From Clostridia bacterium (GTDB lineage Bacteria > Bacillota > Sulfobacillia > JAJZYS01 > JAJYTV01), in NCBI GenBank assembly GCA_027420455.1, contig DAIBJA010000023.1, positions 70,427-102,806 on the forward strand: a stretch of DNA of 32,380 nt, given 5' to 3'. A program made the position numbers and the translations under genes. Shown here in pieces: positions 16,680 to 23,124 of this stretch. The notes beneath the pieces are model-generated. The model saw nothing but the letters and a program-made list of their open reading frames with translations, did not search any database and was not told the DNA's origin. Numbering within the stretch: position 1 is the stretch's first letter; every line of letters begins with the position of its first letter.

Positions 16680-16868
16680 TCATTCCTTGGCTTTGGCCGG
16701 GTCGCCCGACGCGTCCACCTGCGTCAGGTCGATGTCCTTGACCGAACGTCGGAACTCCTGGATCGTCTTGCCTACGCCCTTGCCGATCTCCGGCAGGCGT
16801 TTCGGGCCGAACAGCAGCAGAGCGATCACCAACACGATGATGAGGTGGGTCGGTGTCAGGAGGTCCAT
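16680..16868 (-). CDS. tatA: Twin-arginine translocase TatA/E-type subunit (62 aa)
   Basis: MDLLTPTHLIIVLVIALLLFGPKRLPEIGKGVGKTIQEFRRSVKD: single TM, FGPKRLPEIGKGVG hinge and amphipathic helix. Confidence 0.93.
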   Translation of the reverse strand: MDLLTPTHLIIVLVIALLLFGPKRLPEIGKGVGKTIQEFRRSVKDIDLTQVDASGDPAKAKE

Positions 16869-16872
16869 GCGA

Positions 16873-18210
16873 TCACATTCCCTTCGCGAACTTCGAAACA
16901 CCGCTGCGGGAAGGCGTTCCCGCCCGCTGCCAGAGCGTCTGGCTCCTGCAGGCCGGGCAGAGCGGTTGCCCGGTTCCATGCCGGCCCTCCGCCTCGGCCG
17001 ACGTCCGCAGCCCCTGCCAGAGCGCTTGAGGCGCCAGCTGTGCGCCGCAGGAGGAGCAGCGCACGAGGGGACTCTCCCGCAGCACCGCCACCTGGGCACC
17101 CGGCGGGGCTGCAGAGACTCCCAGCGCGCCCGTCGGGCAGGCCGGCAGGCAGGCGGCGCATGCTGCGCAGGCACCTGGGTCGAACACCAGGCGCTCGCGC
17201 TCCTCCTGCCGCTCGAGGAGCAAGGCGTGGGCGGCACACGCCTGCGCGCAGATGCCACACAGCGTGCAGCCCGCGCCGGCTGCGAGCCCGAACGGCTCTG
17301 TTTGCAGCGCGCTCAGCCGCTGCGGACGCCGGAGCGCAGCCAGTTCTCGGAAGTCCACCGCTGGGACGCCCACGCCCGCCTCGGCTGCGTGCGTCGCATA
17401 CTCCCTCAGCGGGCAGTCCTGGACAGGGCAGACGACATCGACGGCGACTCCGGCGGCACGGGCTTCCCGGATACGCGCGTCCGCGATCTCGGCCACGCAG
17501 GCCACAGGCATCTGTGGCCGTCCATCCGGCGCCAGCGGCCGGCAGGTGAGGCGCAGTCGCGCAATAGCCTCTGCGTCGGCTCTTGCGGCCGAGAGCGCTG
17601 CAAGCCACTGGGCATCACCCGTCACGGCGCTCTCGAGGGCTCCCGTCGGACAGGCCGCTACGCAGCGCCCGCACTGACGGCACGCCTCCTCAGCGATGGA
17701 CAGGTGTCCGCGCTGGATGCTGATCGCGCCGCTCGGGCAGGCGTCAGCACACGCGCGGCAACCTGCCGCGCTGTGACAGAGGGTCGCCTCCAGCCGCGGC
17801 ACGCGCTGCAGCGGCAAGAGTCTCGGCAGGGGCAGGCGGAGCAGTTCGCCGCGCGTGGGCTCATCCATCAGCCCGACATAGCGACGGGTGGGCCCGTCAC
17901 CCGCGATCGGCGCGTCAAGCCTCGCGAGCTGAACGCCGACGTCGCGCCACAGCGCATCGCTCCGAGCGTCGCACGACCGCGAGCAGACGACCCAGCCCAG
18001 TGCCGGGGGATCGGCCGCGGGCAGCGCGTCGGCGAGGCCGAGAAAGGCCAGCACCGGTCCATCGATGACGCTGCGCACCGGTCGCGGCAGGATCACGACG
18101 CGCATGGCCCGCCCAGGGTAGCGCTGGCGCATGCCGGCGATCAGCCTGCGCTGCAGCGAGCGCCGGATGCCGGGCCCGAACGCCAGGGTCAGGGTCTCGT
18201 CACGCGCCAT
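16873..18210 (-). CDS. Multi-cluster 4Fe-4S polyferredoxin with C-terminal zinc-ribbon-like CxxC...CxxC
   Basis: CHSAAGCRACADACP, CRQCGRCVAACP, CTLCGICAQACA, CAACAACLPACP, CSSCG...LCPACR. ATG at 18210 with SD GAGAGGTGG is preferred over 18237. Confidence 0.85.
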   Translation of the reverse strand: MARDETLTLAFGPGIRRSLQRRLIAGMRQRYPGRAMRVVILPRPVRSVIDGPVLAFLGLADALPAADPPALGWVVCSRSCDARSDALWRDVGVQLARLDAPIAGDGPTRRYVGLMDEPTRGELLRLPLPRLLPLQRVPRLEATLCHSAAGCRACADACPSGAISIQRGHLSIAEEACRQCGRCVAACPTGALESAVTGDAQWLAALSAARADAEAIARLRLTCRPLAPDGRPQMPVACVAEIADARIREARAAGVAVDVVCPVQDCPLREYATHAAEAGVGVPAVDFRELAALRRPQRLSALQTEPFGLAAGAGCTLCGICAQACAAHALLLERQEERERLVFDPGACAACAACLPACPTGALGVSAAPPGAQVAVLRESPLVRCSSCGAQLAPQALWQGLRTSAEAEGRHGTGQPLCPACRSQTLWQRAGTPSRSGVSKFAKGM

Positions 18211-18275
18211 GTCGCACCACCTCTCAGAGGGGCCCACGTCCGACGGACGTCAGGCGGGTCTGCAGCCACCTGTTC

Positions 18276-18848
18276 TTACGCGTCCTGCGCTGCCTTGACC
18301 GCCGCCAGGGCGTAGGCGGCGGCCTTCGCGTAGAAGGGCTGCCTGGCGTGCTGGGCGACGCCGGCGACCCATTTGGGCAGCCACTCCAGGAGATGGCGTT
18401 CACCGAAGGCCGCGGCGTCGGTCATCGCCTGCAGGTCCCCCCTGAGAAGGAGGTGCCCAAGGAACGCGAGCTCGGAAACGACGTGATCAGGCGGCAGTTC
18501 CTGGGCCGTCACGCCATGTTTCTCATAGGTGCCCGCCACCTCGCTCGTGCTCTGCCCAGCGCCGGCCTCCTCGAGATAGAAGGCCTCCACGGGGCGGCAG
18601 GGCGCATACGGCAGGTCGGAAATGAAGAGCCGGGTGTACTCCTCCTGGGCGGCCTCGACGCCGTCGGCGGCCATGGCGGCGAAGGCCTCCTGCAGGTGCG
18701 TCTGCAGCGCCTGGCGGATGGTCGGAACATCGCCGTCCGCGACGAGTCGCAGGATGTTCGGAGCCACATCCCACCACTCGCCCTCTGGGTACCGCAAGAG
18801 GTAGGCCGCCGCCTCGAGATCGAAGAGAACCTCTTCCGCCGCCTGCAT
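18276..18848 (-). CDS. TorD/DmsD-family molybdoenzyme maturation chaperone
   Basis: EEYTRLFISDLPYAPCRPVEAFYLEE ... LPPDHVVSELAFLGHLL signature. Confidence 0.88.
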   Translation of the reverse strand: MQAAEEVLFDLEAAAYLLRYPEGEWWDVAPNILRLVADGDVPTIRQALQTHLQEAFAAMAADGVEAAQEEYTRLFISDLPYAPCRPVEAFYLEEAGAGQSTSEVAGTYEKHGVTAQELPPDHVVSELAFLGHLLLRGDLQAMTDAAAFGERHLLEWLPKWVAGVAQHARQPFYAKAAAYALAAVKAAQDA

Positions 18849-18869
18849 CGCTGCCGCCCTCCAACCTGC

Positions 18870-19769
18870 TCAGATGTGCGGGAACGGGTAGCCGAAGATG
18901 CCTGCAGCAAGTACGTAGTAGCGCAGCAGGAACCCTCCCATGAGCACCAGGACCGCGGCCAGGGACGTCAGCACGTGGTTCGGACGGGCTTCGCCGCCCT
19001 GGCTGCGGCCGTGCTGCACCATCTGCCAGATCTCGATGGCCCACGGCACAAGCAGTCCGAGGAACGCGAAGCCGACGAGGAAGCCCGGGCTGCCGAGCAG
19101 GTAGGCAGCCGACAGCCTGGCGGCCTCAGGCGCTAGGCGGAAGTAGTTGAAGAAGGCGAGCAGGATGAGGATCTCGCCGCCGATGAGCGCCGCATCCACG
19201 CGCTCGAGCCTGCCCGCCAGCGCGTCCAGCCAGGGCCATGTCTTGCGCATGGCGAGGGTGTAGAGCAGCACGAGCGCGGCCCCTGTCGAGGCAGCGGAAA
19301 CCACGAACAGGAGCGGCAACGCCGGCGTGTTCCAGAACGGAATGTCCGGTGCCTGGGAGACGAGGAAGCCGGTATAGAGCGCCACGGCCATGCCGATGAC
19401 GGAGTTCCAGGCGAGGAGCCTGGGCAGCACGACATCGCGCCTGAGGTCGAACCAGAGGTAGACGACCCCGATCACGAGGAAGGCGGTCAGCAGCAGGACG
19501 CCCCAGAAGATCCACGACGTCGGGTTCAGGAGCGTGTACATGAGGTGCCAGGGGTTGACGAGATCTACCACCAGGAACAGCGTGCCGACGGCCACCGAGG
19601 CCATCGCCGCCCCCTGGGCGAACCGCATGAGCCGCCTTTGCAGCTCTCCGGTCAGCGCAGCAGTGCGCCCGAGCCAGTAGGCCATGCCCACCGTGGCGCC
19701 GCCGAGTCCGCCGAGGAAGAGGTAGACCGCGATCAGCCAACCCCACTCGGTCTGGTGCATGTACGTCAC
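18870..19769 (-). CDS. NrfD/PsrC-type polytopic membrane subunit
   Basis: MTYMHQTEWGWLIAVYLFLGGLGGATVGMAYWLGR, about 8 TM segments, and position between the FeS subunit and TorD. Confidence 0.9.
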   Translation of the reverse strand: MTYMHQTEWGWLIAVYLFLGGLGGATVGMAYWLGRTAALTGELQRRLMRFAQGAAMASVAVGTLFLVVDLVNPWHLMYTLLNPTSWIFWGVLLLTAFLVIGVVYLWFDLRRDVVLPRLLAWNSVIGMAVALYTGFLVSQAPDIPFWNTPALPLLFVVSAASTGAALVLLYTLAMRKTWPWLDALAGRLERVDAALIGGEILILLAFFNYFRLAPEAARLSAAYLLGSPGFLVGFAFLGLLVPWAIEIWQMVQHGRSQGGEARPNHVLTSLAAVLVLMGGFLLRYYVLAAGIFGYPFPHI

Positions 19770-19781
19770 GTCGTCTCCCCC

Positions 19782-20378
19782 TCAGCGGATGTAGAAGACC
19801 TTCGGCTTCGTGCCGAGCTCTGGCGCGAGAGGAACGGCCTCGCCCGAGGAGACGAGCTGGGCGACGCGGCTCGCTTGGTCGTTGAGATCCCCGAAGATCC
19901 TCGCCTCGCCCGGGCAGGTGGCAACGCATGCCGGCTCAAGGCCCTCCTCGAGCCGCTCGTAGCAGAAGTCGCACTTGTCCACGTGGGCGCTGGTCTGCTG
20001 CACGTCGGGACCATAGACGATGCGGGCCCTGCTTATGTCGCCCGCGTCGTAGACGTAGCGGGCGTCGTAGGGACAGGCGAGCATGCAGGCCTTGCAGCCC
20101 ATGCAGGTCTCCTGGTCGACGACCACGATGCCACCCTCGATGTAGTGGCTCGCACCGGTAGGGCACACGGACACGCAGGGCGCATCCTCGCAGTGCATGC
20201 AAAGTCGGGGTACGAATTCGCGGGAAACGTCGGGGAACTCACCGATCACGACGTTCTCGACGTGGGTGCGATAATTGCCGGACCAGAACGGCGTGTCGTG
20301 CTGCTGGGTGCATGCCGCGACACAGGCTTGGCAGCCGAGGCACGTCTTCACGTTCAAGACCATTCCGTAGCGCTTCAC
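19782..20378 (-). CDS. Four-cluster ferredoxin electron-transfer subunit (DmsB/PsrB/NrfC-like)
   Basis: CLGCQACVAAC, CMHCEDAPCVSVCP, CMGCKACMLACP, CDFCYERLEEGLEPACVATCP. Confidence 0.95.
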   Translation of the reverse strand: MKRYGMVLNVKTCLGCQACVAACTQQHDTPFWSGNYRTHVENVVIGEFPDVSREFVPRLCMHCEDAPCVSVCPTGASHYIEGGIVVVDQETCMGCKACMLACPYDARYVYDAGDISRARIVYGPDVQQTSAHVDKCDFCYERLEEGLEPACVATCPGEARIFGDLNDQASRVAQLVSSGEAVPLAPELGTKPKVFYIR

Positions 20379-20391
20379 CCGTCAGCCCTCC

Positions 20392-23124
20392 CTAGAGCTT
20401 GCGCAGGCGCACGGTGAACTCGCCGCTGCGCGGCGCGCCTACCACCGATTCGGGCCGTGCCGTGACAAGCTGACTCAAGGCCGTGCCCTGGCCGGCCCCT
20501 ACCAGCAGCCGGTTGTGCACACCGAAGTTGGACATCATGTAGACCGTATCCGGTCGCACCATCTCCGTCAGGAAGGCTGTGCCCTGCACCGTGTCGCCGG
20601 TGGCGGTGTTGCGGAGCTCGAGGCGGTCGCCGGAACCGATGCGGAGCCTGCGAGCCGACGCGGGATTGACCCAGATCCCGAGGTACTGGTCACCGTAGTT
20701 GTGCGACAGCGCCATGAGCAGGTCGTTGTTGGCCGTGGCCGTGTGGGACTGCACAGGCGCCTTGCCATACGCGAAGAAGAACTCGTCTGCCGCCAGGTGG
20801 CCGCCTGCGGCCGGTGTCTCCGGCGGAATCCAGGCAATCAGGGGGTCCCACTCCGGACGATAGCCGTGTTCCTGGATGAAGCCGGCCGTAATGAGCGAGA
20901 AGAGCTCGAGCCGCCCCGACGGCGTGGGAACGGGGAGGTGGTCCGGCATCGCCCAGCGCGCAAGCAGCGGCTCTGCCTGATCGAACACCACGAGGCCGTC
21001 CCGCCGCAGACGGCGCTTGAGTTGTGCCACGGAGACACCCTCGGCGCGCGCCGCCTCACGGATCTGGTACTCCGCCACGGCCGCGACAGCCGACCCGCCG
21101 CTCCGACGCGCCGACTCGGCTGTCTCGGCCACCGCGGCCGGATCCCAGCCGTTGAACTCTGCCACCGTCTGCCAGAACGGCACGCCACGCATGGCCGCAA
21201 GGTCGGAGAGGATGTCGAGCGCAGGCTTCGTGCCCTTCGGCGGAGTGACGGACGGTTCCCTCAGGCGGATGCCGCGCTGGTGGCTGTGCCCCAGGTCGAA
21301 GAGCAGGTCCTGGCGCTCGAGGTACACCTGATCCGGAAGAATGACGTCCGCGTAGGCGTTCGAATCGTTCGGCATGATATCGATCGCCACCACGAGCCCC
21401 ATGCCCGGGTCGGCCAGGAACTCCTGCCATGCCGTGCTGCTCATGGCGTTGCGGATGGGGTTCGCCTGGTACATGTAGAAGGACCGCAGCCGGTAGGGCT
21501 TGCCCTGCCACTGCACCTGTCCCTTGGAGCCTTCGAGGTAGCCGAGGTTCGGGAAGAGCGGGAAGGCGACGCCCTGCTTGCCCTCGGAGAACTGTTGCTC
21601 GGACCAGGCGTACGAGATGCCGGGATGCTTGTGATTCCAGGCCTGCGGGTTGTCGAAGTAGGTCGCGAGCACGCCTTGCGGGCTCATGATGCCTGGCACC
21701 AGCATGCCAGGATACTTCTGCAGGTCACCGCCCTTGCGGAGGTAGGCCAGCATGTCCGCCATCATCTCGTGGTACTCTCCGGCGAAGATCCAGCCGCCGC
21801 GCCGGTCGATGCCGCCGACCAGCGCCTGCAGCATCGCAACGCTGCGGCGCAGCATGATCGAGTTCCTGTAGCGTCCATCGTGCCAGCCGGGCTCGACCAG
21901 AGCAGGGCGCGTGGTGCCGAAGTCGTGCGCCACCTCGCGGATCGTCGCCGCGCTGACGTCGGTGATCGCGGCCGCCCACTCCGGCGTGAAGGTCGCCACC
22001 TTCTGCTGCAGCGCCTGCAGCACGGTCTGCACCCGCTTGCCCTGGAAGAGCAGTCCCTGCGGTACGGCAAGCGCCGGTGCGACGGTGGAACCGTCGACAG
22101 CCACCGTGTTGTCGTTGTGGAACACGCCACCGGTCTCCACGACCTGTCCGCGCGTGGCATCGTAGACGTAGAAGGCGCTCGGCATGTGCGACGCCGGGTC
22201 CGTCTTCATCACGGGCTGACCCTGCTCGTCGAGGAGGAACGGCGCATTGGTGTGGGCCGCCACGAACTGCGCATCGTAGTATCCGTGCCCGAGCATCTCG
22301 TGCAGCATGGCCAGGGTGAACGCCAGGTCCGTGCCCGGCTTGATGGGGATCCAGGTGTCGGCGTGCGCGGCGAGCTCGGAGAGGCGCGGATCGAGCACGA
22401 CAACCTTGGTCTTCTCGAGGTTGCGCGCGAGGTCGAGCGCTCGGCCGGTCGAGATGGCGGCGACCGACGCATTCGATCCGATGGCAAGGAAGTAGCGCGC
22501 GTTGCCGTAGTCCGCCTGCACCTCGTCGTGGATGTTGAAGTTGCCCGTCACCGTGTCGATGCCGAAGTGCTCGCCCGTGACGCAGGGCTGCATCGGCGTG
22601 CCGTAGATGTTCGGGATCTCCGACGATACGGCGAACGCGACGACCTCCGGGCGGTAGTAGGCGCAGATCACCCAGCCCGCGGCGATTGCCTTCTCATAGG
22701 GCTGGATGTCGAGTTCCCGTTCCCGCCGCTCGATGTACGCGTAGGCCTCCTCCCAGCTGGCCGCCCGGAATCGCCACTCGCCGCGCTTCGACCCCGCGAC
22801 GCGAATGAGCGGCCTCGTGATGCGTTCGGGACTATACGCCAGCCGGAGCCCGGACTGGCCGCGCGGGCACAGGCGGCCCTGGTTGAAGGGATCCGCTCCG
22901 TTGCCGTCGATCTTGACGGCGCGCCGGAGTCCGCCCCGTTCATCGACCTGCACTTTGATCCCGCAACCGCTCGCGCACATGGTGCAGATATTGGGATACG
23001 ACGTATCCGACTGCGTCGCGTCGTCTGCACTCGTCTTCGCAAGCGCAAACTCCAAGGGTCCCAGAACCGCCAAAGATGCACCAGTAACCGCGCTGGCTTC
23101 GATGAATTCTCTTCGCGTAAGCAT
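20392..23124 (-). CDS. Molybdopterin-dependent oxidoreductase catalytic subunit (DMSO reductase superfamily, PsrA/PhsA/TtrA-like), Tat-targeted
   Basis: Tat signal MLTRREFIEASAVTGASLAVLGP; N-terminal cluster CTMCASGCGIKV...GRLCPRGQSGL; candidate Mo-ligand Cys in GTPMQPCVTGEHFG; C-terminal molydopterin-dinucleotide-binding domain. Confidence 0.93.
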   Translation of the reverse strand: MLTRREFIEASAVTGASLAVLGPLEFALAKTSADDATQSDTSYPNICTMCASGCGIKVQVDERGGLRRAVKIDGNGADPFNQGRLCPRGQSGLRLAYSPERITRPLIRVAGSKRGEWRFRAASWEEAYAYIERRERELDIQPYEKAIAAGWVICAYYRPEVVAFAVSSEIPNIYGTPMQPCVTGEHFGIDTVTGNFNIHDEVQADYGNARYFLAIGSNASVAAISTGRALDLARNLEKTKVVVLDPRLSELAAHADTWIPIKPGTDLAFTLAMLHEMLGHGYYDAQFVAAHTNAPFLLDEQGQPVMKTDPASHMPSAFYVYDATRGQVVETGGVFHNDNTVAVDGSTVAPALAVPQGLLFQGKRVQTVLQALQQKVATFTPEWAAAITDVSAATIREVAHDFGTTRPALVEPGWHDGRYRNSIMLRRSVAMLQALVGGIDRRGGWIFAGEYHEMMADMLAYLRKGGDLQKYPGMLVPGIMSPQGVLATYFDNPQAWNHKHPGISYAWSEQQFSEGKQGVAFPLFPNLGYLEGSKGQVQWQGKPYRLRSFYMYQANPIRNAMSSTAWQEFLADPGMGLVVAIDIMPNDSNAYADVILPDQVYLERQDLLFDLGHSHQRGIRLREPSVTPPKGTKPALDILSDLAAMRGVPFWQTVAEFNGWDPAAVAETAESARRSGGSAVAAVAEYQIREAARAEGVSVAQLKRRLRRDGLVVFDQAEPLLARWAMPDHLPVPTPSGRLELFSLITAGFIQEHGYRPEWDPLIAWIPPETPAAGGHLAADEFFFAYGKAPVQSHTATANNDLLMALSHNYGDQYLGIWVNPASARRLRIGSGDRLELRNTATGDTVQGTAFLTEMVRPDTVYMMSNFGVHNRLLVGAGQGTALSQLVTARPESVVGAPRSGEFTVRLRKL

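Follow-up and report, generated by a model that had tools for sequence, protein, structure and literature searches.

The sreABCDE operon encodes a molybdenum catalytic subunit with a Tat motif, an iron-sulfur subunit, a membrane anchor, a polyferredoxin of unknown function termed SreD, and a chaperone of the NarJ/TorD type (PMC3189178). As late as 2017, SreD was described as a protein of unclear function (PMC5317093). Ferredoxin genes listed as 'fer4' or as 'hypothetical ferredoxins' have also been described in TorD-linked formate dehydrogenase operons (PMC4464133). Among the Hdr proteins, HdrA of type Ia is known as a fusion of HdrA with MvhD (PMC12054007).

The window, by which we mean the whole stretch of 32,380 nucleotides analysed here, contains a five-gene operon on the minus strand with the same gene composition as that of SreD from Acidianus ambivalens and Thermoproteus tenax, a likeness that rests on the operon description. 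The first gene (20392..23124) encodes a 910-residue catalytic molybdoenzyme subunit recognized by PF00384, PF04879 and PF01568. Its best NCBIfam model is thiosulfate reductase PhsA with 311 bits, under the cut-off of 694 for that model, and its Tat motif LTRREFIEASAVTGASLAVLG agrees with the claim of the first-pass annotation that this subunit is exported by the Tat pathway. The following genes encode a 198-residue four-cluster iron-sulfur electron-transfer subunit (19782..20378), assigned by four cysteine motifs in the translation and an iron-sulfur profile match, a 299-residue membrane subunit of the NrfD type (18870..19769; PF03916, E=7.9e-37), and a 190-residue chaperone of the TorD/NarJ family (18276..18848; PF02613, E=1.4e-19). 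The polyferredoxin gene (16873..18210) comes last, and its product was rightly described as an extra one because the operon has a separate four-cluster subunit. The intergenic gaps are, in operon order, 13, 12, 21, and 65 bases, with purine-rich sites before the genes; GAGGTGG lies just 5' of the polyferredoxin ATG. The next downstream gene, a methyltransferase (16531-15896), starts 341 bases beyond the polyferredoxin gene and is probably separate from the operon. Two archaeal loci (L218 and L219) have the same five genes, and their polyferredoxin homologues were matched with E=2.6e-62 and 8.1e-61. The window genome also holds a third related Tat-type molybdoenzyme with an iron-sulfur subunit (L230, on contig C54 of G000), which is cut by the contig end.

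The polyferredoxin reading frame extends from the ATG at 18210 to the stop at 16873 and encodes 445 residues, including 26 cysteines. The parts reported earlier, namely four 4Fe-4S motifs in two pairs, a cysteine-bearing middle, and a CxxC..CxxC end, are all present at these positions. Based on the translation and the family alignment, an N-terminal domain (residues 1-138; 17797..18210) precedes the first 4Fe-4S pair (residues 139-195; 17626..17796), which matches Pfam Fer4_7 and reads CX5CX2CX3C (Cys145/151/154/158) followed by CX2CX2CX3C (Cys177/180/183/187). The MvhD/FlpD-like middle domain (residues 196-285; 17356..17625) bears Cys223, Cys238, Cys261, and Cys266. It is followed by the second 4Fe-4S pair found in the Pfam scan (residues 312-366; 17113..17277), with Cys315/318/321/325 and Cys348/351/354/358, and by a zinc-ribbon-like end (residues 380-425; 16936..17073) with Cys385/388/418/421. 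When the protein was scanned directly against Pfam and NCBIfam, generic ferredoxin models alone were returned, and no Pyr_redox/FAD Pfam match indicated an FAD domain of the thioredoxin-reductase-like kind. The earlier proposal of a cytoplasmic protein was confirmed: no N-terminal signal or transmembrane segment was found, and the 19-residue hydropathy peaks at 1.6, on the second ferredoxin pair. An antisense open frame of 542 codons on the plus strand (16687-18315) overlaps the gene; it is probably an artefact of high GC content, with nothing pointing to a gene.

Each of the 16 cluster cysteines is conserved in 32-35 of the 35 aligned relatives, 27 of which also keep the CxxC pairs at the C-terminus. 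The conservation of the cysteines across these relatives argues that the motif pattern did not arise by chance. Paralogues of the same genus adjoin other molybdoenzymes, and one of them, on contig C29 of the window genome, is 41% identical over the matched part. The genome bin of a sister species (G003; L040, on the 10.7-kb contig C18) carries the entire operon of window positions 16873-23124 with a polyferredoxin that is 100% identical, indicating either a recent transfer or a contig shared between the two bins. More distant full-length relatives are found at L042, L044, and L045, in many Pseudomonadota, and in archaea from the group of a Thermoproteota record. The searched phage and plasmid records gave no match. 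Weak matches in full genomes (such as L158-L161) were Fer4 noise and were excluded from the family. The polyferredoxin family is widespread, soluble, and uncharacterised, and the window gene is another member of it.

The middle segment had been likened to MvhD/FlpD-type domains in the first-pass annotation. In the window protein itself, the Pfam scan detected no PF02662 match at E<=0.1, and the gathering cut-off was not reached. Such a protein could be a generic ferredoxin with a cysteine-rich linker that arose by chance and without kinship to MvhD, a view for which both the missing match of the window protein taken alone and the spread of HMM matches over many ferredoxin families speak. However, several observations make this explanation very improbable, and we disfavour it. 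All eight sequences of alignment A3 keep the four cysteines of the middle domain, which form the C..C..CX4C pattern of a [2Fe-2S] site, with the spacing seen as CHPGDC in FlpD sequences. Relatives of the same architecture pass the PF02662 cut-off (L045 with 2.4e-15, L044 with 7e-8, and L042 with 1.5e-7). Reciprocally, a search of the phylum with the middle-domain profile brings up true FlpD and HdrA-FlpD proteins, and the domain order is collinear. In profile-profile comparison with FlpD by hhalign, the relatives gave P=7e-13 and the window clade alone P=6e-4, and when the columns of the window clade were permuted 150 times, no permutation equalled its score against FlpD. A few column-shuffle hhalign runs scored very high; one of them was inspected, proved to be an end alignment of 9 columns, and was taken as an artefact. 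At the level of sequence, the resemblance of the middle segment to MvhD/FlpD is supported through the relatives and the profile comparison, and the earlier proposal holds in this form and not as a direct Pfam match.

The cysteines of this domain vary among the other branches of the family. Two branches have CX2C, and the formate dehydrogenase branch has no cysteine in the middle domain, yet still aligns with the cysteine-bearing relatives (P=1e-7). As the MvhD pattern is altered or lost in these branches, any cluster there cannot be essential to the whole family. AlphaFold models reached a pLDDT of 41 with one sequence as input and of 45 for residues 140-305 with four sequences, which is too low for a fold search. 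The best matches in a HMMER search of the PDB with the family profile were ferredoxin stretches only.

The family appears to be what remains of an HdrA-MvhD protein after loss of the flavin domain. Genuine HdrA-MvhD proteins, in which the FAD domain is present, were also found (L163 and L164). The N-termini of L042, L044, and L045 match the N-terminal domain of HdrA (P=3e-7), and the formate-dehydrogenase type aligns with HdrA from the N-terminal domain up to where the FAD domain begins, and again over the ferredoxin pair and the middle domain (P=6e-21 and 8e-15). For the window copy itself we infer Hdr ancestry; its N-terminal part showed no detectable similarity to the HdrA N-terminal domain when sought with the window clade (P=0.6). 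In archaea, a protein consisting of FlpD, a ferredoxin pair, and a zinc ribbon directly adjoins HdrA in a CO dehydrogenase cluster that also contains HdrB- and HdrC-like genes. This protein can be aligned over its whole length and domain for domain with residues 196-440 of the window clade (P=1.9e-18, to which the ferredoxin pair contributes part). The simplest history suggested by these alignments would be a fusion of hdrA with the neighbouring gene for the FlpD-ferredoxin-zinc ribbon protein, followed by loss of the flavin domain. The archaeal clusters are L222 (4783-12219), L220, L224, and L228; that of L222 comprises genes for CO dehydrogenase, a CbiA/ParA-type ATPase, HdrA, the FlpD-ferredoxin-zinc ribbon protein, and HdrC-like and HdrB-like proteins. 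The formate dehydrogenase clusters of Pseudomonadota (L167-L182) encode a long 4Fe-4S protein that has lost all MvhD cysteines and apparently arose by decay of an HdrA-MvhD protein.

A survey of gene neighbourhoods had been suggested, in which homologues occurring mostly without a molybdoenzyme partner would count against the first reading. The survey did not refute it: molybdoenzyme genes lie beside the polyferredoxin in 27 of the 35 loci. Three of the remaining eight reach a contig edge with TorD or iron-sulfur genes present, and five have no molybdoenzyme nearby. The partner enzymes are of several types (formate dehydrogenase-like, PhsA/DMSO reductase-like, and QrcB-like), and nearly all those in the 27 loci carry Tat signals. 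A second sample of 20 loci was picked by molybdoenzyme score, which avoids selection by the polyferredoxin; with the contig-end loci L230, L234, and L235 left out, 17 remained. In this small sample, the polyferredoxin was present in seven of 11 loci with TorD and in none of six without (Fisher one-sided 0.017), and four of the 11 TorD loci had no polyferredoxin. All seven catalytic partners at the sampled polyferredoxin loci have Tat motifs, and NrfD was found at four of these seven loci with none seen at three.

These neighbourhoods bear on how the protein might work. As an electron wire, the polyferredoxin would link a low-potential pool of the cytoplasm (ferredoxin, Hdr, or NAD(P)H enzymes) with the membrane module or the quinone pool at the inner face of the membrane, like MvhD/HdrA and polyferredoxins. 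The NrfD genes in the window operon and in the four sampled loci would suit such a wire, as would the true FlpD proteins encoded in the window genome and the PDB matches to solved Hdr complexes, in which electrons pass through MvhD, HdrA-type ferredoxin pairs, and polyferredoxins. However, the catalytic subunit to be served is exported across the membrane, and the gene follows TorD and not NrfD, occurring also beside formate dehydrogenases without an NrfD gene nearby. Moreover, the flavin domain is gone, and in one branch so are all the middle cysteines. We regard the wire as rather unlikely. Maturation is preferred to such a link because the gene goes with TorD and with catalytic subunits exported by the Tat pathway, whether or not NrfD is there. 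Among the roles that the first-pass annotation had offered, namely membrane link, maturation, and sensing, the neighbourhood data fit maturation better than the membrane link, and none of the three is proved.

The reading that we put forward, and to which we give an even chance, is that the window protein is a SreD-type polyferredoxin located in the cytoplasm, made of HdrA-MvhD pieces minus the flavin domain, with a NapF-like maturation role alongside the TorD-like chaperone. The four 4Fe-4S motifs and the MvhD-like four-cysteine domain could hold up to five clusters arranged as a wire, as predicted from the cysteine motifs. The polyferredoxin and the operon's TorD-like chaperone would act jointly on the catalytic subunit before export. 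The polyferredoxin may provide electrons or an iron-sulfur cluster while the catalytic subunit folds and receives its cofactors, steps that would precede Tat export. NapF, a cytoplasmic four-cluster protein, binds NapA and is required for its iron-sulfur cluster before export in R. sphaeroides (PMC10609526). Similarly, the ferredoxin-like proteins HydN and YsaA raise the activity of formate dehydrogenase H (PMC6004506).

Many relatives contain an internal twin-arginine-like motif, (S/T)RRx(L/F)(L/F), as seen at L034 (5908-7287), L042, L044, L045, L151, L154, L218, and L237-L246. The strict motif is present in 18 of 45 relatives, as opposed to 1.2 expected from shuffling, at near-fixed positions ahead of the first or the second ferredoxin pair, and might be a dock for TorD. 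At the corresponding site of the window copy, the motif is degenerate (TRGELL, about 17830-17870). Both this motif and the conserved zinc-ribbon-like end suggest protein docking and, with the linkage to TorD, would fit a role in redox sensing or quality control, where the polyferredoxin monitors the redox state of the cytoplasm, or else the metal status of the apo-enzyme, and permits export without donating electrons. We consider this role improbable, as the Pfam scan of the window protein shows neither a DNA-binding nor a kinase domain, the 16 ferredoxin cysteines kept in nearly all relatives exceed what a sensor needs, and the motif is lost in the window copy. Returning to maturation as the preferred reading, we tentatively advance a broader possibility: the polyferredoxins of sulfur-reductase-like, DMSO-reductase-like, and formate-dehydrogenase operons may be a single family of flavin-stripped HdrA-MvhD remnants, serving as redox-active, TorD-partnered maturation factors with an internal twin-arginine-like docking motif.

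How does the window protein compare with the described systems? The 4Fe-4S protein of the Pseudomonadota TorD-formate dehydrogenase loci shares with it the order of ferredoxin pair, middle domain, ferredoxin pair, and CxxC..CxxC end, and lies beside a Tat-type formate dehydrogenase and TorD, but differs in its longer HdrA-like N-terminus and in the loss of all middle cysteines. From its context, this protein presumably corresponds to the 'fer4' genes of the earlier report (PMC4464133). MvhD/FlpD and HdrA of type Ia have in common with the window protein a ferredoxin pair followed by an MvhD-like domain and the C..C..CX4C pattern, whereas the window protein differs from them by having no FAD domain, an extra second ferredoxin pair and zinc ribbon, and no match to the Pfam model PF02662. 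Like the window protein, NapF belongs to the soluble four-cluster ferredoxins of the cytoplasm and has a Tat-exported molybdoenzyme encoded alongside it (PMC10609526). Against the NapF model TIGR00402, the window protein scored 40.8 bits and did not reach the cut-off of 102.2. NapF has about a third of the length of the window protein and contains neither an MvhD-like domain nor a zinc ribbon. The Hdr-associated polyferredoxins MvhB/VhuB (PDB 9sw6) resemble the window protein in their multiple ferredoxin pairs, but their partners are different, and the window protein scored 41 bits against the VhuB/MvhB model NF045874, not reaching its cut-off of 600. In the open-licence literature, we found no paper joining the ferredoxins of SreD-type or TorD operons to MvhD/HdrA. 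The presence of an uncharacterised polyferredoxin gene in such operons is already known; the link to Hdr and the correlation with TorD are new here. The connection with Hdr/MvhD and TorD turns the "unknown function" (PMC3189178, PMC5317093) into a testable question, namely whether the molybdoenzyme matures without the polyferredoxin. If the proposed role is true, molybdoenzyme biogenesis would gain a general redox partner beyond NapF.
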